From an uncultured bacterium (GTDB taxonomy: Bacteria; Cyanobacteriota; Vampirovibrionia; Gastranaerophilales; Gastranaerophilaceae): a stretch of DNA of 64,000 nt. Location of the stretch: positions 310,001 to 374,000 of the forward strand of contig CASFYV010000021.1 in NCBI GenBank assembly GCA_949298985.1. The letters run 5' to 3'. A program made the position numbers and the translations under genes. Below, piece after piece: positions 2,631-54,791 of this stretch (its first letter is position 1; every line of letters begins with the position of its first letter). Under the pieces are notes generated by a model, which saw only the letters and a program-made list of their open reading frames with translations, was not told where the DNA came from and made no database searches.

Positions 2631-2687
2631 GTGGGGGTAAATATAATTAGAATCAGAATTAGTTAGAAGATGGCTTTAGATATAGTA

Positions 2688-2771
2688 GAGGCTTCCGCTC
2701 TTTTAGTTAACATAAAAAAAAGAACCCCCAAAAGGGATTCTATCTATATTTCTCTAGTGTTTAAATGGAGC
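2688..2771. repeat. 84-base direct repeat, copy 1 (tRNA-Gly flank)
   Basis: Identical over 84 bases to 2882-2965. Read on the minus strand, the repeat opens with the last six bases of the tRNA-Gly gene (GCTCCA). It then contains a terminator and ends with GCGGAAG, the first seven bases of the same tRNA. That is the spacer expected between two tandem tRNA genes. Here no intact tRNA is attached on either side. Confidence 0.85.
2714..2741 (-). terminator. Terminator copy inside repeat copy 1
   Basis: On the minus strand AGAATCCC/GGGGTTCT (one G-U pair) is followed by eight T. It is the same structure as the terminator of the intact tRNA-Gly, and is now probably an orphan. Confidence 0.6.
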
Positions 2772-2792
2772 AAGGACTCCGGCTGCGTACAG

Positions 2793-2819
2793 AAAAACGT
2801 GACTAAATGTCACGTTTTT
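2793..2819. terminator. Perfect 11-base-stem hairpin, T-rich on both strands
   Basis: AAAAACGTGAC pairs with GTCACGTTTTT around a five-base loop (2804-2808). The arms supply T-runs in both directions, so it could terminate on either strand. It lies in the insert between the two 84-base repeats. Confidence 0.6.
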
Positions 2820-2881
2820 CGTCGACATTTTATTTTATTTAACAAATTTTATTTAAGCAGATGGAGGGACGAGACGTAGTC

Positions 2882-2965
2882 GAGGCTTCCGCTCTTTTAG
2901 TTAACATAAAAAAAAGAACCCCCAAAAGGGATTCTATCTATATTTCTCTAGTGTTTAAATGGAGC
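2882..2965. repeat. 84-base direct repeat, copy 2, joined to tRNA-Gly
   Basis: Same 84 bases as 2688-2771. This copy overlaps the final six bases of the intact tRNA-Gly, so it is the natural 3' flank of that gene. On its other side (2861-2881, minus strand) the sequence after GCGGAAG soon shows TCTCGTC and CCTCCA. This looks like a tRNA-Gly copy with most of its middle deleted. Confidence 0.85.
2908..2935 (-). terminator. Terminator of tRNA-Gly
   Basis: Minus-strand stem AGAATCCC/GGGGTTCT (2935-2928 with 2922-2915), loop of five, then a run of T from 2915 to 2908. It begins 25 bases after the tRNA 3' end. The G-U pair works only on the minus strand, which fits the tRNA's direction. Confidence 0.8.
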
Positions 2966-3035
2966 GGAAGACGAGACTCGAACTCGCGACAGTCTGCTTG
3001 GAAGGCAGATACTCTACCAACTGAGCTACTTCCGC
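2960..3035 (-). tRNA. tRNA-Gly(UCC)
   Basis: This 76-base cloverleaf reads on the minus strand. Acceptor GCGGAAG pairs with CTTCCGC, discriminator U, and CCA is encoded in the gene. The D arm is GCTC/GAGT, the anticodon stem TCTGC/GCAGA with loop CTTCCAA (anticodon UCC), and the T arm GCGAG/CTCGT with loop TTCGAGT. A terminator follows at 2935-2908. It decodes GGA/GGG glycine codons. The flanking 84-base repeats suggest it is the survivor of a tandem array. Confidence 0.97.
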
Positions 3036-3086
3036 ACAAGAGTTATTCTAACTCAAACATAAAAACATTTCAAGTATTTTTTATAA

Positions 3087-3737
3087 TTATTGTGGTAAAG
3101 AAGTTTTTGCATTGTTCATTGGAACAGCCTCAGGATTAGACTGAGTTTCAGTCTCTTCATCCGGCTCTGTATGAGCATACAACCTTAAACTAAGATTTGA
3201 AATTAAAATTTTCTTATCTTTTTCATAAGGCTTTACTTCTAAACCATTAATTTTTACATAATAAGGGTACTGATAAATATCCTGAATCAATTTCCCTAAA
3301 TTAACATAATTAGAGACTAATTCCATTTCAACATCACAAACAAAATAAATACCTTTGCCAAAATTTACAAACGGATCATCTTCCGGATTATATTGATAAT
3401 CAATTTTCTTAATCTTAACAGTATTAGCATGAACCATTTCAATAATATCATTATACAAAGTAAAGAACAAAGTATCACTACCCAAATCAGATTCAATAGG
3501 AGAATAAATCTTCTTTTGAGATGTAAATATAGAATCTTTAATTTTTTTAATTTTTTGTTTAACAATAGATAATTTTTTCTCTAAAGTTTCAAGCTGGCCT
3601 TGCTTACTATTCACAGAGCTTTCAAGGCTTTTAATCTCTACTACCTTAGGTGAAAACAAAGAGTAAACTATAAAAATCAATAAACCCACCGCAGCTAAAA
3701 AAGCTAAAACCCCATAATATCGTTTACTTTTATCCAT
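3087..3737 (-). CDS. pilO: PilO-like type IV pilus inner-membrane protein
   Basis: This 216-residue protein has one N-terminal membrane helix (about residues 8-28, YGVLAFLAAVGLLIFIVYSL). A predicted coiled coil follows (SVNSKQGQLETLEKKLSIVKQK, roughly 40-68), then a small alpha/beta domain. That is the build of PilO, which pairs with PilN to link the cytoplasmic ring to the secretin. The C-terminal 20 residues are acidic and low in complexity. It sits 11 bases downstream of the PilM-PilN-like fusion on the same strand, the order M-N-O known for pili. Primary sequence of PilO is weakly conserved, so the call rests on architecture and context. Confidence 0.7.
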   Translation of the reverse strand: MDKSKRYYGVLAFLAAVGLLIFIVYSLFSPKVVEIKSLESSVNSKQGQLETLEKKLSIVKQKIKKIKDSIFTSQKKIYSPIESDLGSDTLFFTLYNDIIEMVHANTVKIKKIDYQYNPEDDPFVNFGKGIYFVCDVEMELVSNYVNLGKLIQDIYQYPYYVKINGLEVKPYEKDKKILISNLSLRLYAHTEPDEETETQSNPEAVPMNNAKTSLPQ

Positions 3738-41253: not shown

Positions 41254-42483
41254 CTATATTAATATCTGTGTTCCAAGCATAATTCTATGAGAATCTTTCG
41301 CCGCATCATTTTGACAGAATACATAGTTTAGAATTAATCTTAACCCTTGTCCTTTAATGAAGTAATTGAGCCCAACAGAATATTCTCTTTGATTATTATG
41401 TGCGATTTCTCTATTAGGGTCGAATTCATCATATCTTGCAAGAATTTGTAGTTTTTTTGTAAGCATATATCCAACAGTTGCATAAAAACCGCTTGCATGT
41501 TTATCAGTAGAAAATCCACTAGGTCCGTTGTATCCGTTAGCTTGAGCCCATTCAAAATTAGCCATAAATCTTTTGTAATCATACTGAATATGAGCACCAA
41601 CAACACAGAAGTTGTTATCTCTATGTCCAGCATCCATGCTGCCGCCGATAAGTAATTTCCCATATCTACCGTCAGTTTTACCCAGAGGTTTTAAATCAAC
41701 TCTACCGATAAATTCTGCTCCAGGGAAAAATTCTTGGAAATACGTATCTGAACTATATACCCCAAAATCATATCCTAAAAGGCTATAGTCACCAGAAACT
41801 CTTGCACCTAATTTTCTTATCGTTCCAAAGTTTCTGGAAATTTGTGAACGAGCTATAAATGGTAGAACAAACGGGCCATAAGCACCTTCCATACCTAAAG
41901 GTGGTCGAGAATGTCCAACTAATAATCTGTGGTGAGGAATTTTATTGGTTGCGATATACATATCAGCAAATAGGTTTTGTACAAAATTTCTTTCCGTAAA
42001 AGGATTGTAGTTAAACATTATTCTTGCATCAGCACTATTATTTTTAAAGAAAATATCATAACCAACGTTGATAGTATTAACATCGTAATGGTTAGTAGTA
42101 TGATCGGAGTTTAATCCTCCTTCTACAAAATGTAGCCCTATATCACCGTTATATCCTGCCCAAAGTTGAGTATGGTCAACTAAAGAACCTTCATCAAATT
42201 TTTGAGTTAAAACATCTTTTAAAAGATATGTAGGCTTATCATATTTATCAACTTCCAAATGATAAACATCTTGAAGTTTTTCTTTTAAACTTTTTTCTTT
42301 TTTAATACTGCTTTCACTAACAGAAACCGCTTGCGGAGCATCTGCAAGTTCTTTATCAAGAATATCTTCTAAAACAATTTCTTCTAAATTGTCATTGTTT
42401 TTATTTTTAGTATCTGCAGCTAAAACTGGAGTAATTGTTGCTATTATTAATCCGATTATTATTAGTAAAATCTTATTTTTCAT
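41254..42483 (-). CDS. OprP/OprO-type outer-membrane porin, copy A
   Basis: 409 residues. Signal peptide MKNKILLIIIGLIIATITPV with cleavage after VLA. A mature acidic N-terminal region leads into alternating beta strands with aromatic ends and a C-terminal strand HRIMLGTQILI. The motif HHRLLVGHSRPPLGMEG recurs in the copy at 49853. Looks like a phosphate-selective porin family barrel. Minus-strand TATAAT (42500-42495) ends 11 bases before the ATG, so the leader is only about five bases. A terminator for focA lies just upstream. Confidence 0.8.
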   Translation of the reverse strand: MKNKILLIIIGLIIATITPVLAADTKNKNNDNLEEIVLEDILDKELADAPQAVSVSESSIKKEKSLKEKLQDVYHLEVDKYDKPTYLLKDVLTQKFDEGSLVDHTQLWAGYNGDIGLHFVEGGLNSDHTTNHYDVNTINVGYDIFFKNNSADARIMFNYNPFTERNFVQNLFADMYIATNKIPHHRLLVGHSRPPLGMEGAYGPFVLPFIARSQISRNFGTIRKLGARVSGDYSLLGYDFGVYSSDTYFQEFFPGAEFIGRVDLKPLGKTDGRYGKLLIGGSMDAGHRDNNFCVVGAHIQYDYKRFMANFEWAQANGYNGPSGFSTDKHASGFYATVGYMLTKKLQILARYDEFDPNREIAHNNQREYSVGLNYFIKGQGLRLILNYVFCQNDAAKDSHRIMLGTQILI

Positions 42484-49040: not shown

Positions 49041-49856
49041 ATGACTATTTTTAATCGAACAATAAATATTCATACTCCTTATATGAATATAGGAACACCT
49101 CCTATATTTAGTTGTAATAACTTTTTACCTTTTAATAATTGGATGCCAACATTCAATTTTAATTTTTTCAATTTTAATGTATTTAGTTTTCCATTTCAAA
49201 ATTTTAATAGTATACCTAATTTTTCATTTAATTTGGAAAAAATGTTTCCAACTACCAATATTTGGGATAATCAACAAGCAAATTTCAATTTAAAAACAAA
49301 TTGGAATGTTTCTTGGAATAATACTTGGCAGGCAAATTGGGGTGATACTTTTACAAGAAGTAATGCTGAAATAAAACGAAATCCAACAAATTCAAACTTA
49401 CAATTAGCACTTGTAGATAAAGCGAAGAGTTATATAGGAAAAGTAAATTCTGATGCTGAAGGTAACAGATTATTTTCAAACGGAAAATCTCAAGCTTGGT
49501 GTGCAGACTTTGTATCAACAATAACAAGAGAAACTTTTAAAGATAAATTACCATCAAGCTTCCAACATTTTTCTGCTGTTAGTGATATCAAAACTTGGGG
49601 AGAAAATAACAACTGTTACTTATCAGTACCTTCAGCAAATAAAGCCGAATTTATTGCAAAAAATGTAAAAGTCGGCGATATTATGATAGAAAAAAATGGG
49701 GGAAAATCTCATACAGGTATTGTTACAAAAGTAAATTCTGATGGTTCATTCGAAACAGTTGAAGGAAATTGTAGCAATAAAGTTGCAACACAAAAATATC
49801 AAGCAAATAGTCCTACATTAAGCGGATTTGTATCTTTAGATAAATATACAGCTTAG
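49041..49856 (+). CDS. CHAP-domain peptidoglycan amidase-like protein with Phe/Asn-rich N-terminus
   Basis: 271 residues, AAGGA ribosome site. The first 100 residues are extremely rich in Phe, Asn and Trp, with no signal peptide, a possible aggregating or membrane-inserting region. The C-terminal part (about 118-268) is a CHAP-type domain: catalytic Cys in SQAWCADFVS and His in KSHTGIVTKV, ending EGNCSNKV. CHAP enzymes cleave peptidoglycan crosslinks or glutathionylspermidine. Whether it acts on own or foreign walls is unknown. PPIFSCNN near residue 23 may be a variant leader. Confidence 0.75.
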   Translation: MTIFNRTINIHTPYMNIGTPPIFSCNNFLPFNNWMPTFNFNFFNFNVFSFPFQNFNSIPNFSFNLEKMFPTTNIWDNQQANFNLKTNWNVSWNNTWQANWGDTFTRSNAEIKRNPTNSNLQLALVDKAKSYIGKVNSDAEGNRLFSNGKSQAWCADFVSTITRETFKDKLPSSFQHFSAVSDIKTWGENNNCYLSVPSANKAEFIAKNVKVGDIMIEKNGGKSHTGIVTKVNSDGSFETVEGNCSNKVATQKYQANSPTLSGFVSLDKYTA

Positions 49857-51010
49857 AGCATTAATTGAGTTCCTAAAATTAATCTGTGCGAATCTTCTAG
49901 GATATCATTTTGGCAAAAGACATAATTAAGCATAATTTTCATAGCTTGTCCTTTCAGGAAATAATTTAAACCAACTGAATATTCTCTTCTTATATCGTCA
50001 GCATAATTTTTGTTAGGAATAAAATGATCATATCGTCCTAAGATTTGTAGTTTAGGAGTGATTTTATATGCAATTGTTGAATAAAAACCTTCTGCTTTAT
50101 TAGTAGAAATAGTATAAGCTCCATTATATCCGTCAGCGGAAGCGTATTCAAAATTTGCCATAAAATTTTTATATTCGTAACCTGCATACAAGCCTGATAC
50201 AAAATAATCAGTATTATTATTTCCTGCAGTGATTCCGCCCCCTAAACGTAAATTTCCATACTTTCCTTTTGTTTTCCCGAGAGGTTTAAAATTTACCCAT
50301 CCGGCAAATTCAGCTCCTGGGAAAAAACTTCTAAAATAAGTATCAGAACTATAACCTCCTAAATCATATTCTATTAAATCATAGTTCCCTTTAACCCTTA
50401 AGCCAACTTTTCTAGTGTTTCCAAAATTTCTAGCAATTTGAGCTCTTGCAACAAAAGGTATAATTGAATCAGAACGTCCGCCTTCATATCCTGTAGGAGT
50501 TCTTGTATTACCCAAAATTATTATATGGTGTGGAATTGAGGCGTTAGCCACATAGATATCTATTGGCATAGTTTGTAAAAATTTATACCCATCTACAGGA
50601 TCAAATCTAAATCGAGCTTCATAAAAATTTTGCCCGCCTCTAAATTTACCGTTAATTCCTGCTTGAATAGCATTAAAGTCATAAATAGTATCCCCATTTT
50701 CTGATAAATTCATTTCAGCAGCGGCTCTGTAGTATCCAAAGAAATGCATTGTTTCTATTGGACCCGATTCGAAATGTTTAGTTAAAATTCCATCTAATAA
50801 ATAAGAAGAACTATTAGTGTCTTTAACTTCTTTTGACTTTATATCTTGAATTTTTTCCCAAAGAGTGTATTCATCATCCTCTTCAAAAACTTTATTTGCA
50901 CCTTTTTGGGGAATATTGTTATCATCAATGTCTAATAAGACTTCTTCAATTGCAAAAGAAGAAGTCATGCAAAAAATAAAACAAACCAGAAGGAACGAAA
51001 ATTTCTTCAT
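49853..51010 (-). CDS. OprP/OprO-type outer-membrane porin, copy B
   Basis: 385 residues from the ATG at 51010, which gives a signal peptide (MKKFSFLLVCFIFCMTSSFA). An upstream frame to 51070 is not coding-like. Same barrel pattern and C-terminal strand as copy A at 41254 (SRNFGTIRKLG there, ARNFGNTRKVG here; both have FFPGAEF and GYNG). The two differ along their N-terminal linkers. Convergent with the CHAP gene by four bases. Confidence 0.8.
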   Translation of the reverse strand: MKKFSFLLVCFIFCMTSSFAIEEVLLDIDDNNIPQKGANKVFEEDDEYTLWEKIQDIKSKEVKDTNSSSYLLDGILTKHFESGPIETMHFFGYYRAAAEMNLSENGDTIYDFNAIQAGINGKFRGGQNFYEARFRFDPVDGYKFLQTMPIDIYVANASIPHHIIILGNTRTPTGYEGGRSDSIIPFVARAQIARNFGNTRKVGLRVKGNYDLIEYDLGGYSSDTYFRSFFPGAEFAGWVNFKPLGKTKGKYGNLRLGGGITAGNNNTDYFVSGLYAGYEYKNFMANFEYASADGYNGAYTISTNKAEGFYSTIAYKITPKLQILGRYDHFIPNKNYADDIRREYSVGLNYFLKGQAMKIMLNYVFCQNDILEDSHRLILGTQLML

Positions 51011-51122
51011 TAAGCAATTATAACATATAAACGAATACATTAAATGAATGAAATTAACAAACTTGTTCATCTGAATAAATGATTTTTAAAAAACAAAAAT
51101 ATTAAAAAATGTTAAAATAATA

Positions 51123-51203: not shown

Positions 51204-52931
51204 ATGGGAATGGCAGCATCACAGGCCAGATATTTAGCACTAGTTGCAAGAAAATCAAATTGTGAATATGAAGGTCAACAAATAAATCAGGCAAGAACTG
51301 TTTTATCAAATCAGAGTGCAAATTTGTTTAACCAAATGCTGGGCTTAAATGTACCAATCCCTCCTAGCACACAAGATTTTACAAAGCAACAATATTCATT
51401 TTCAGACGGTTCAAATGAATACACAATAGATAGCTGGCAGCAACTTGCCAATGATCCTGACTATAATTATGTAGTAACACATCATTATTATGCAGATGTA
51501 TATACAGGTTCGCAAAAACATAAGCAGGATCCTCAAGTACAATTTTCAAGTGGTACGGCAGCAACTGTTGACCAAATTGAAATGGCACAAAGATTAATGA
51601 CACAAGCAAAGGCAGATTATGAAGCGGCAAAAGCTGCTGTAAAAGAAAAAGAAGCTGAGGCTGCAAGCTTAAATAATTATGTAAATACGGATAATTATCA
51701 ACATATCACAGCTTGTAATTATGACGTCAATACAAATAGTTATACTGTATCGAGATCTGAACAAGAAAAATATGGTAATGCTTTAGTATATAAAGATAGT
51801 GCAGGTAACAAGTATTATTATAATGAAGAAGACAAGAAATATTATAGTACAGATGGCACAAGTACTCCTTATACTGGATCAGAAACTCTTCTTGCTTCAA
51901 TGGTAGATGCACCAAATGCTGTTTATAAAGGATATTCTCAATATGATGCAGTTACACAACAAAAAATTGCAAATGCTTTAGATGTTTTAATAGAAAAGGG
52001 GGCATTAAGCAAAGATACCAAATTAGATTATGCCGATATTTATTATAATGAAGCAGATGGTTCCATTGCCTTTAAATCAGATTTAAAAAGCTTGTATGGA
52101 GGAAATGTAAATGGTTCTAAAACAATTTTACCTGTTTATTATACAGGAGATGCGGGAACCACCGGAACTATTGAAAACATTGCTGCTAAATATGACGCTG
52201 AATTAGCAACACTACAAGCAGCAGAATTTGCTGCATTACAGGCTTTTGAAGCGGCAGAAACCACATATAATAATTTACAAAGACCTACATATGTTGGAAA
52301 TAGTGAATTAACTTTACTGGTTGATTTAACTGACGATCAAAAAGCCGAATTAAAACAAATTGTCACTGATATGAAAGCTCAAGGTATCGATTCTGCAATC
52401 ACCGATTGTTTTGATAATGAAGGAAATTATTTAGGTGGGGTTTATTCTTTCCAACTAAATGGTGTTACATATTATACAACATATGCTGATTTAAACAAAT
52501 CATATCAAAGTGGAACCGGTATAAATCATATCGATGGTCAAGATAAATTAGCATATTATAATGCAACATACGTTTCAACAAAAATGGAAGAAACTAAAAA
52601 AGCATTATTAGAAACAGACGGTAACGGTAGATTTACGTCTGTAAGGTTTGAAGACGACTCAATTAAATACACTTTGAACATGGAAACGGTAACAGATGAT
52701 AATGCTTATCAAGATGCAATGAATCAATATTATTATGAAAATGCACAATATGATAAAATGGTTCAAGATATAAATGCAAAAACATCCTTAATTCAGCAAG
52801 AAGATTTACAATTGGAATTACGATTAAAGCAGCTTGATACAGAACAAAATGCTCTTGCAACGGAAATAGATGCAGTTTCTAAAGTTGTTAAAGATAATAT
52901 TGAAAAATCATTCAAAACATTTGGCGGTTAA
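51204..52931 (+). CDS. Large secreted-filament-type protein, unrecognised family
   Basis: 575 residues, AGGAG before the ATG. N-terminal helix MGMAASQARYLALVARKSNC, then QQINQARTVLSNQSANLFNQ. C-terminal coiled coil ends ATEIDAVSKVVKDNIEKSFK (last residues TFGG). The middle is Tyr/Thr/Asp-rich and beta-like (YADVYTGSQKHK, YYNEEDKKYYSTDG) with an Ala/Glu coiled insert. No signal peptide. Conserved helical ends around a variable middle is how flagellins and hook-associated proteins are built. Related small protein at 54459 shares both ends. The family name is not known to me. Confidence 0.65.
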   Translation: MGMAASQARYLALVARKSNCEYEGQQINQARTVLSNQSANLFNQMLGLNVPIPPSTQDFTKQQYSFSDGSNEYTIDSWQQLANDPDYNYVVTHHYYADVYTGSQKHKQDPQVQFSSGTAATVDQIEMAQRLMTQAKADYEAAKAAVKEKEAEAASLNNYVNTDNYQHITACNYDVNTNSYTVSRSEQEKYGNALVYKDSAGNKYYYNEEDKKYYSTDGTSTPYTGSETLLASMVDAPNAVYKGYSQYDAVTQQKIANALDVLIEKGALSKDTKLDYADIYYNEADGSIAFKSDLKSLYGGNVNGSKTILPVYYTGDAGTTGTIENIAAKYDAELATLQAAEFAALQAFEAAETTYNNLQRPTYVGNSELTLLVDLTDDQKAELKQIVTDMKAQGIDSAITDCFDNEGNYLGGVYSFQLNGVTYYTTYADLNKSYQSGTGINHIDGQDKLAYYNATYVSTKMEETKKALLETDGNGRFTSVRFEDDSIKYTLNMETVTDDNAYQDAMNQYYYENAQYDKMVQDINAKTSLIQQEDLQLELRLKQLDTEQNALATEIDAVSKVVKDNIEKSFKTFGG

Positions 52932-52954
52932 ACTTTTAATTAAACGAGGTAATT

Positions 52955-53812
52955 ATGTCATACAAAAACGATGGATATTTAGTAATGGCGAACAGATTTG
53001 GAGCCGCATCAGCGGATGCCAAAGTTATGCTTTACGAAACCTACGATCGATTAAGAGATTTAACAGTAGCCGGTTCTGCAGGTTCTGGCACAGGCTTCGA
53101 AGCAGCAGGTGGTTTTTTATACCAGCTTGCTAGTTTATTTGCTCCATCAGCTTTTATGACAACGCTTGGTGGTACAAGTGCTATGAATATTCCGGGGACT
53201 TCATATTGGACACAATATACCGGTGGAACTGGTGGTACTACAGGAACTTATTCTTCTTTTGGGGTTAATAGTTTAGGAAATTATTCAGGTTTTCCTAGCG
53301 GATACGCAGCAAATTTTGGTTATAGACAAAGCGGTTATACAACAGGCGGAGCATCAGGAATCGGAGATTTATTATCCGGTTTTGGCTCTTCTGATGGTGC
53401 AACTACCGGGTATGCTTCCGGAATTGGAAGTATTGCTGATATTGCAAGTACTGCAGCTTATGGAGTTGGAACTGCAAATGGTTATGGAATTGGAGCTGCA
53501 AATGTTTTAATGCCACTTGCAGGATTAATTTCCGGTTGGGGCGGAATCATGACTGCAGCTGCTCCGTATCTTGGGGAATTTGGACTCCCGGCTGTTGTTA
53601 TGGGTAATTTAATGCAAGGTACTACTTCGGCGGCTCTTTCTGCTTACCAAAGTGTTTCTAGTAATATTATTTCTAATGCTGATACAATACTGTCTCAAAA
53701 AGTTGCTAATATTGAGACTGTTTGCAAAATGCTTGATACGCAAGGCGATATTGTTAGAAAAATGCTTAAAGATGATATTGAATCTGCTAGTAAAGATATT
53801 CAAGACTTATAA
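52955..53812 (+). CDS. Gly/Ser-rich protein of the 51-55 kb cluster
   Basis: 285 residues; starts 23 bases after the large protein with GAGG. Opens MSYKNDGYLVMANRFGAASA. Middle is Gly/Ser/Tyr-rich with repeats such as YASGIGSIADIAS and YGIGAANV. C-terminal helices follow (SNIISNADTILSQKVANIET, IVRKMLKDDIESASKDI). No signal peptide. Might be a structural subunit or a substrate of the same export route. Unrecognised. Confidence 0.65.
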   Translation: MSYKNDGYLVMANRFGAASADAKVMLYETYDRLRDLTVAGSAGSGTGFEAAGGFLYQLASLFAPSAFMTTLGGTSAMNIPGTSYWTQYTGGTGGTTGTYSSFGVNSLGNYSGFPSGYAANFGYRQSGYTTGGASGIGDLLSGFGSSDGATTGYASGIGSIADIASTAAYGVGTANGYGIGAANVLMPLAGLISGWGGIMTAAAPYLGEFGLPAVVMGNLMQGTTSAALSAYQSVSSNIISNADTILSQKVANIETVCKMLDTQGDIVRKMLKDDIESASKDIQDL

Positions 53813-54174
53813 TTTGTTTAACTAATATTAAAAAAAGATTTAATAATATGCAAGGACGCACATTTTTTAGAATAATGTTAGATTTAATACTAAATAATGT
53901 TATTATCAAAACGATAATAGCATTTGTAACTTTTTGTAAAGAACAACAGTATTATAATCGTAATGAATTAAAGTTTTCTGAAAAATTACCGTTAACTAGT
54001 TTAGTAGAAAAAGAATATTATAAAAAACGTTTTGTGTTTAATTCAATAACCAACAAGAGGAATAGTTCTAGGTAATGTTAACAATTGTAAAAAAAATAAC
54101 TAATGATACGCAATTATTCTTAACTACATGTTTTATAATACATGTAGGCTTAGAACGTATAGGAGTAAAAGCTT
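53813..54174. other. 362-base gap in the cluster; possible tiny ORF and control elements
   Basis: A 75-codon frame (53848-54075, MQGRTFFRIMLDLILNNVII) lacks a ribosome site and I do not accept it as a gene. There is a hairpin at 53899-53921 (TATTATC/GATAATA) and, at 54124-54147, a dyad containing a TATAAT. Confidence 0.5.
54124..54147. promoter_or_regulatory. Dyad enclosing a -10 box
   Basis: CTACATG (54124-54130) and CATGTAG (54141-54147) flank a 10-base centre that contains TATAAT (54134-54139). It is 28 bases before the next gene. A bound repressor would cover the -10. Confidence 0.5.
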
Positions 54175-54444
54175 ATGCGTGAAGAACTACAACAAAGTAT
54201 TCAACGGTTAGTGAATTTTATGAATTTTACCAGATCGTTTTTCATAAGGAAAAATCCATTTAAGGCACTGGCTGTAAGTTTAATATCAAGCCTTAAGGAT
54301 ATGCTTACCATTAGGCAAAAACTAAAAATGGCTAAGTATAGGGTAAATTATCACAAGCATCAATTACATAAAATGGAAAGTTTGATTGCAGAAAGTAATG
54401 AACACACATTCCTGAAAGGTAAGAATCTAAACGAAACAAGATAG
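54175..54444 (+). CDS. Small basic helical protein of the cluster
   Basis: 89 residues, AGGAG ribosome site. Basic (MREELQQSIQRLVNFMNFTR, KMAKYRVNYHKHQLHKMESL) and helical, no signal or membrane segment. Size and charge are like a secretion chaperone, but no known family matches. Placed before the small coiled protein at 54459. Confidence 0.65.
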   Translation: MREELQQSIQRLVNFMNFTRSFFIRKNPFKALAVSLISSLKDMLTIRQKLKMAKYRVNYHKHQLHKMESLIAESNEHTFLKGKNLNETR

Positions 54445-54458
54445 AAGGACTGTGTATT

Positions 54459-54791
54459 ATGGGATTAATTGCCTCTAGTTTCAGAATGATGTATCTAACA
54501 GCTTATAAGATAACGCTGGAAACTAAAATTCAGTGGATTGCTTCGGCTAAGATGGAATTGGTTGCATCTTCAGATGAAATTATGGCTTTAGGAAATGACT
54601 TAGATCCTGAAAATCCTGCAATCAAACAATTGGAAGCGAGAAGAGATAAACTTATTATTCTTGAAAAGAAATTAGATTTACAAATGCAAGAGTATCAAAA
54701 TAGATTAAAAATGGTTGATGCAGAATTACAATCTGCTCAAGGTGCTGTTGATGCAGCTATTAGAAGCTCATTTACCTACAATTTCCAATAA
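54459..54791 (+). CDS. Small coiled-coil protein sharing helical ends with the large cluster protein
   Basis: 110 residues. N-terminal MGLIASSFRMMYLTAYKITL aligns with MGMAASQARYLALVARKSNC of the 51204 protein. The pattern is M-G-x-x-A-S-x-x-R-x-x-x-L-x-A with E-x-x-x-Q-x-I after it. The C-terminus (EKKLDLQMQEYQNRLKMVDA, ending SSFTYNFQ) parallels the other's SFKTF end. So it is essentially the two terminal helices without the middle. It is a possible filament or needle-type subunit. A terminator is not evident. Confidence 0.65.
   Translation: MGLIASSFRMMYLTAYKITLETKIQWIASAKMELVASSDEIMALGNDLDPENPAIKQLEARRDKLIILEKKLDLQMQEYQNRLKMVDAELQSAQGAVDAAIRSSFTYNFQ

Follow-up and report, generated by a model that had tools for sequence, protein, structure and literature searches.

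What might a large protein and a small protein be doing side by side when they share their terminal helices, and only the large one has a long middle between them? The pair is encoded in a stretch of 64,000 nucleotides (the window) from an uncultured gut bacterium, a relative of cyanobacteria in the order Gastranaerophilales, and is part of a 1.79 Mb genome labeled G000. An earlier note, made from the letters alone, read the locus as a cluster of four genes with a flagellin-like layout, belonging to no known family and calling for an exporter of its own. We asked what these proteins are, how far the likeness to flagellin goes, and by what route they might leave the cell. The second export machine to which the cluster proved to be linked is a larger finding than the flagellin-like layout.

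The gene cluster

All four genes lie where the earlier note placed them, on the forward strand: A (P0001, 575 aa; 51204–52931), B (P0002, 285 aa; 52955–53812), D (P0003, 89 aa, net charge +10; 54175–54444) and E (P0004, 110 aa; 54459–54791). A fifth, gene C (75 aa, basic; 53848–54075, same strand), had been overlooked between B and D. The gaps from A to E are 23, 35, 99 and 14 bases, and this spacing, on a single strand, looks as in an operon. Gene A has a conserved N-terminal helix (1–51) and C-terminal helix (504–573) around a variable insert of ~450 aa; B has conserved helical ends and a Gly-rich, hydrophobic centre; and E, a short relative of A with no insert, is presumably a helical hairpin. 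Signal peptides had been reported absent, and by eye no hydrophobic one is visible at the N-termini.

The neighborhood is conserved across the order. The gene order A-B-(C)-D-E is maintained across families of Gastranaerophilales, with counterparts of C (75–79 aa) in the same place in other genomes (63% in G036, a member of the window's genus). B partners A in two orders, since the A-B pair is present in Vampirovibrionales as well, and D pairs with E in Gastranaerophilales; in two loci of Vampirovibrionales (L139 and L141) a D-type gene is directly 5′ of a family member.

Other features of the window deserve mention. A CHAP-domain protein (49041–49856), its N-terminus rich in Phe and Asn and without a visible signal peptide, is conserved 5′ of the cluster in G036 (L195), and is possibly a further export substrate. 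Two related outer-membrane-type proteins occur at 49853–51070 and 41254–42483, the first of which weakly matches Porin_O_P. Far upstream, at 2670–3139, two overlapping reading frames with nearly identical stretches of ~35 residues around a tRNA-Gly gene (2960–3035) are a local duplication.

Fixed ends and a variable centre

A hidden Markov model built from ten short family members (109–138 aa), all of other genera, matches gene A at residues 1–51 and 504–573 (E 3.5e-31) and gene E over its whole length, 1–105 (E 2.8e-17). The common termini of the 575-aa and 110-aa proteins, first noticed as a pattern, thus reflect true homology, and A reads as an E-like protein with an insert of ~450 residues. 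Of that pattern one detail needs correcting: the C-terminal SFxxF is present in A, but in E it is SFxxxF. Counterparts of A in other Gastranaerophilales families, located 5′ of B, D and E, are 113–138 or 249 residues long, and because A lacks its insert (113–138 aa) in several of these families, the centre looks like an add-on.

The two parts evolve very differently. Within the genus, residues 1–25 of A are 99% identical in pairwise comparison and residues 526–550 87% (81–87% for the C-terminal end overall), whereas mean identity across residues 126–350 is 11–39%, falling to 11–15% pairwise at 176–250. For E, the mean pairwise identity is 83%. The centres of A are fast-changing and beta-containing, and Tyr, Asn, Thr, Gly, Ser and Asp make up 48% of them. 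Several A-type paralogues occur per genome; G000 has at least six complete family members (575, 495, 435, 384, 330 and 110 aa), along with fragments at contig ends. Its contigs break inside family members at C9:38459, C31:3–113 and C15:13888—the last contig also carries two flagellins—and repeated family sequences probably fragment assemblies.

That the proteins belong to no known family was borne out in Pfam, NCBIfam, PHROGs and the PDB, none of which holds the A/E family. A PDB sequence search with gene A found nothing above noise, nor did profiles built from the short members or from gene B. As far as we have seen, the family is restricted to the class Vampirovibrionia, where it is present in two orders, Gastranaerophilales and Vampirovibrionales, and is carried by Vampirovibrio chlorellavorus, too. 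A and E are thus members of a protein family without an earlier name, whose helical ends are fixed and whose centre varies.

How far the likeness to flagellin goes

The flagellin-like layout stands, as a layout. In an AlphaFold model of gene A, made with 40 sequences in the alignment (mean pLDDT 73), helices at 2–46 and 499–574 are mostly above 90 and the centre is poor; predicted beta segments at 60–100 and 456–497 adjoin the terminal helices. Together with the identity profile, the model gives conserved helical ends and a variable middle. For gene B, the prediction is of low confidence (pLDDT 41.5).

Sequence gives no support, however, for placing the proteins among the flagellins or among rod or hook proteins; the profile-profile probability is ~3% or less with flagellin and with the rod proteins of the second export system described below. 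Comparisons of the family with FliE, FlgB/C/G/F, FliD and flagellin were negative (3.3% by hhalign for flagellin), Pfam scans of the cluster proteins gave no Flagellin_N (PF00669) match, and neither Pfam nor profile-profile comparison found in the family the Flg_bb_rod or Flg_bbr_C motifs of the rod and hook proteins FlgB/C/F/G/E. The C-terminal helix of gene B reaches 13.9% against the family, a value on which we claim no homology. Structural comparison is no more decisive. By VIA-align, gene A aligns at both ends with flagellins (Z 8.6–8.9, rmsd 2.2–3.1 over 107–112 residues, a Z range shared with unrelated coiled coils) and with FlgL (Z 8.1 and below, similar to what unrelated coiled coils reach); for the two groups together the rmsd is 2.2–3.1 over 107–121 residues. 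SMC-like coiled coils outscore flagellins, and helical models often reach Z 8.1–8.9, so the modeled likeness lies within the chance range of such models: consistent with a flagellin-like core, but not proof of one. Foldseek found no PDB match to gene A with E below 0.6, and none at 0.001 or better in either PDB or BFVD. The idea that A and E are true flagellins finds no support in sequence, there being no detectable homology; the layout is a useful analogy.

A second flagellum-type export system

The dedicated exporter that had been predicted appears to exist: a second type III system of flagellar kind, which we call T3-II, occurs together with the family and has genes linked to the cluster. 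Its genes encode FliE, FliF, FliH, FliI and a distinct (type II) FlhA; FliO, FliP, FliQ, FliR and a FliN (FliMN_C); rod-like proteins resembling FlgB, FlgC, FlgF and FlgG; and an SLT transglycosylase. The protein encoded between FliF and FliH (K), in the usual place of FliG, has no FliG match, and a motif search of the fetched stretches found no type II FlhB. The lack of a FliG match and of a flagellin in T3-II suggests a device that does not rotate.

With a type II query, FlhA proteins fall into two types: type I, the flagellar one, is ~37–40% identical, and type II 63–88%. In the FlhA tree each type forms a fully supported clade with members from the two orders, Vampirovibrionales and Gastranaerophilales, and is therefore probably older than their split. 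With midpoint rooting, the single FlhA genes of three groups that lack the A/E family (f10–f12) are sister to type II. Against the flagellar FlhA model TIGR01398 type II scores 697.7 bits, below the cut-off of 772 (type I scores 851), and against TIGR01399 (SctV) 586 bits, below the cut-off of 692; the gate proteins of T3-II score higher with flagellar models than with injectisome models. Judged by its genes, then, T3-II is a second flagellum-derived export system, distinct from the ordinary flagellum.

In G000 the second-type FliN-O-P-Q-R genes are on the window's own contig, at C21:261304–265767, some 96 kb before the cluster. The G000 assembly lacks a full FlhA gene of either type; both are present in its sister G022, the E protein of which is identical. 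A separate 493-aa protein of G000 (C26:103253–104356; L196:8263–9744; also in L248 and L249) matches the C-terminal half of FlhA alone (PF00771 positions 321–655), and similar genes are widespread in the order.

Linkage and co-occurrence

In seven loci (L187, L189, L191, L193, L194, L197 and L198) the cluster, as A-B-D-E (or, in one cut by the edge of the stretch, B-D-E), lies 2.4–6 kb from FliE-FliF-K-FliH-FlhA. In two more (L159, L161) a like distance separates it from FliE(-FliF), and in the window's genus it is 2.3 kb from FlgC-B-G-F (L195, G036); A adjoins FlgC-B-G-F in L162; SLT follows E in L088/L146; and in a Vampirovibrionales locus (L133) FlgB-FlgC-SLT-FliE is ~6 kb from A-B. Several of these loci were fetched for a nearby FlhA, and their counts are a biased rate. 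Many of the FliE-FliF-K-FliH-FlhA loci, moreover, share one inherited arrangement, which leaves a handful of independent arrangements. Just after E, on the opposite strand (L187:9233–9868 and equivalents), several genera without type I FlhA encode a 211-aa coiled-coil protein with no family match above cut-off.

Among 290 genomes of the class, the family is present in 231, every one of which (231/231) has a FHIPEP/FlhA gene, and in none of the 38 that are FHIPEP-negative; the nesting of these 231 within 252 FHIPEP-positive genomes was read from two tables. In many family-positive genomes the only FHIPEP gene is of the distinct type. Type II FlhA was found in 16 of the 17 family-positive genomes tested (the tree includes 13 of the sequences from these 17), the exception being G000, and type I in all 13 tested that have flagellin. 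FliP tells the same story: flagellated family-positive genomes have two copies, save G000, in which only the second type is assembled, and the four from g26/g35 that lack type I FlhA have one, of the second type. Because the family and T3-II both lie within one clade, their co-occurrence represents few independent events.

Alternative explanations

Could the family simply be part of the ordinary flagellum, as minor filament, sheath or hook-associated proteins? In a first sample of 77 relatives the family and flagellin largely go together, nearly all family-positive genomes having flagellins—in G000 itself nine genes are flagellin-like, their open frames 285 to 624 codons long—and in Vampirovibrionales some members adjoin flagellins, FliD or FlgB-FliG, those in L079, L078 and L110 having flagellins or type I flagellar genes nearby. 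A component of the ordinary flagellum would be expected only where flagellin and type I FlhA occur, however, and the family is not so confined. In the window's taxonomic family, 21 genomes, which represent 19 genera, lack flagellin and a full-strength type I FlhA (best matches ~1e-215, versus 1e-260), yet they retain the A/E family and FlhA of type II strength. Genus g41, where type I FlhA is lost in some species only, shows that the loss happened more than once, and the linkage in Gastranaerophilales is to T3-II genes. The A/E family travels with T3-II, not with the ordinary flagellum, and we regard a purely flagellar role as unlikely. A cytoplasmic one, in which A and E would be coiled-coil partners of T3-II—chaperones or scaffolds—that stay inside, has a little more to be said for it, E and D being small, helical and chaperone-sized, but we think it unlikely: large, fast-changing, beta-containing centres like those of A are what one expects of exposed surfaces and seldom of chaperones, and genomes carry several A-type paralogues.

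The proteins might instead reach the surface, or be secreted, by another route, their association with T3-II being an effect of clade and chance. Family and T3-II do mark the same clade, and the f10–f12 relatives have the sister-type FlhA without the family; against this are the lack of visible signal peptides and the repeated linkage, in varied arrangements, to FliE/FliF, FlgCBGF and SLT genes, which make such a route quite unlikely. A phage origin as structural proteins we consider very improbable. Members occur on seven IMG/VR contigs and, where these were read, adjoin portal, terminase or capsid genes; but none of 50,697 phage records, nor PHROGs, yields a match, the family spans two orders, and in L180 host-like genes separate the phage block from the family member. 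The blocks on these contigs (L180–L186) are divergent and prophage-like, with capsid, portal and terminase genes in a common order and a family member of 565–773 aa just downstream; they may represent a phage that was domesticated and conserved, or a gene-transfer element.

A possible appendage, and what it would mean

On balance we lean toward a non-motile appendage, or a device for secretion, of which A and E would be exported, flagellin-like subunits. They would leave the cell without signal peptides through T3-II, which is carried beside, or instead of, an ordinary flagellum. The terminal helices would pack as the inner, polymerizing part of an external structure, with the variable centres of A-type proteins displayed outside, as in flagellin, and the short, strongly conserved E serving as an adaptor or as a core, needle- or rod-like subunit. 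B, Gly-rich and hydrophobic with helical ends, may sit distally or contact the membrane, and the small, basic C and D may be cytoplasmic helpers.

Several known systems come close. Flagellin and FlgK/FlgL also have conserved helical ends, variable centres, several paralogues, no signal peptide and a linked flagellum-type gate, but A and E share no detectable sequence homology with them, the shortest members (109 aa) have no centre, and the family is retained where flagellins are lost. The needle and tip proteins of injectisomes (SctF, SctA and EspA type) are helical hairpins, some of them with an inserted domain, that leave through a type III gate; the A/E layout is alike, but without sequence match, and the T3-II gate scores higher with flagellar models. 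Buchnera aphidicola keeps filament-less flagellar basal bodies (PMC8109811), and so, too, export machinery and basal-body genes with no need to swim; here, in contrast, two systems coexist whose divergence probably precedes that of the two orders, and there is a candidate external protein family. Non-flagellar type III systems evolved from the flagellum (PMC3459982), as T3-II appears to have done, but T3-II has retained rod genes resembling FlgB/C/F/G along with a long FliF, and its gate is below the NCBIfam cut-offs for both FlhA and SctV.

No second type III system is described for Vampirovibrionia in the literature that could be searched, which excluded most subscription papers. The gene list of Di Rienzi et al. 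has two flhA genes. Loss of flagella was inferred in Gastranaerophilales by Soo et al. (PMC4451040), where a type IV system was proposed for the algal predator V. chlorellavorus, and the incomplete flagellar gene sets of its gut members have been taken as a sign of ongoing genome reduction (PMC3787301) or, as cited in PMC5877343, of non-motility. A different history is quite possible, though short of probable: a second, non-swimming appendage derived from the flagellum, with an A/E filament or needle family of its own that is unrelated in sequence to flagellin, would have come down to Vampirovibrionia from their common ancestor. After the loss of flagella it would have become the sole type III machine of most gut Gastranaerophilaceae, and the 'degenerate flagella' reported from some gut strains would be this same machine, intact.

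Gut Gastranaerophilales are widespread in animals, and bench characterization of them is scarce. A conserved second export machine, together with an abundant, variable and probably surface-exposed protein family, would alter the reading of their flagellar genes as genome reduction or non-motility. It would give these bacteria a route by which to touch hosts or prey, and it would add a case of flagella turning into secretion devices.
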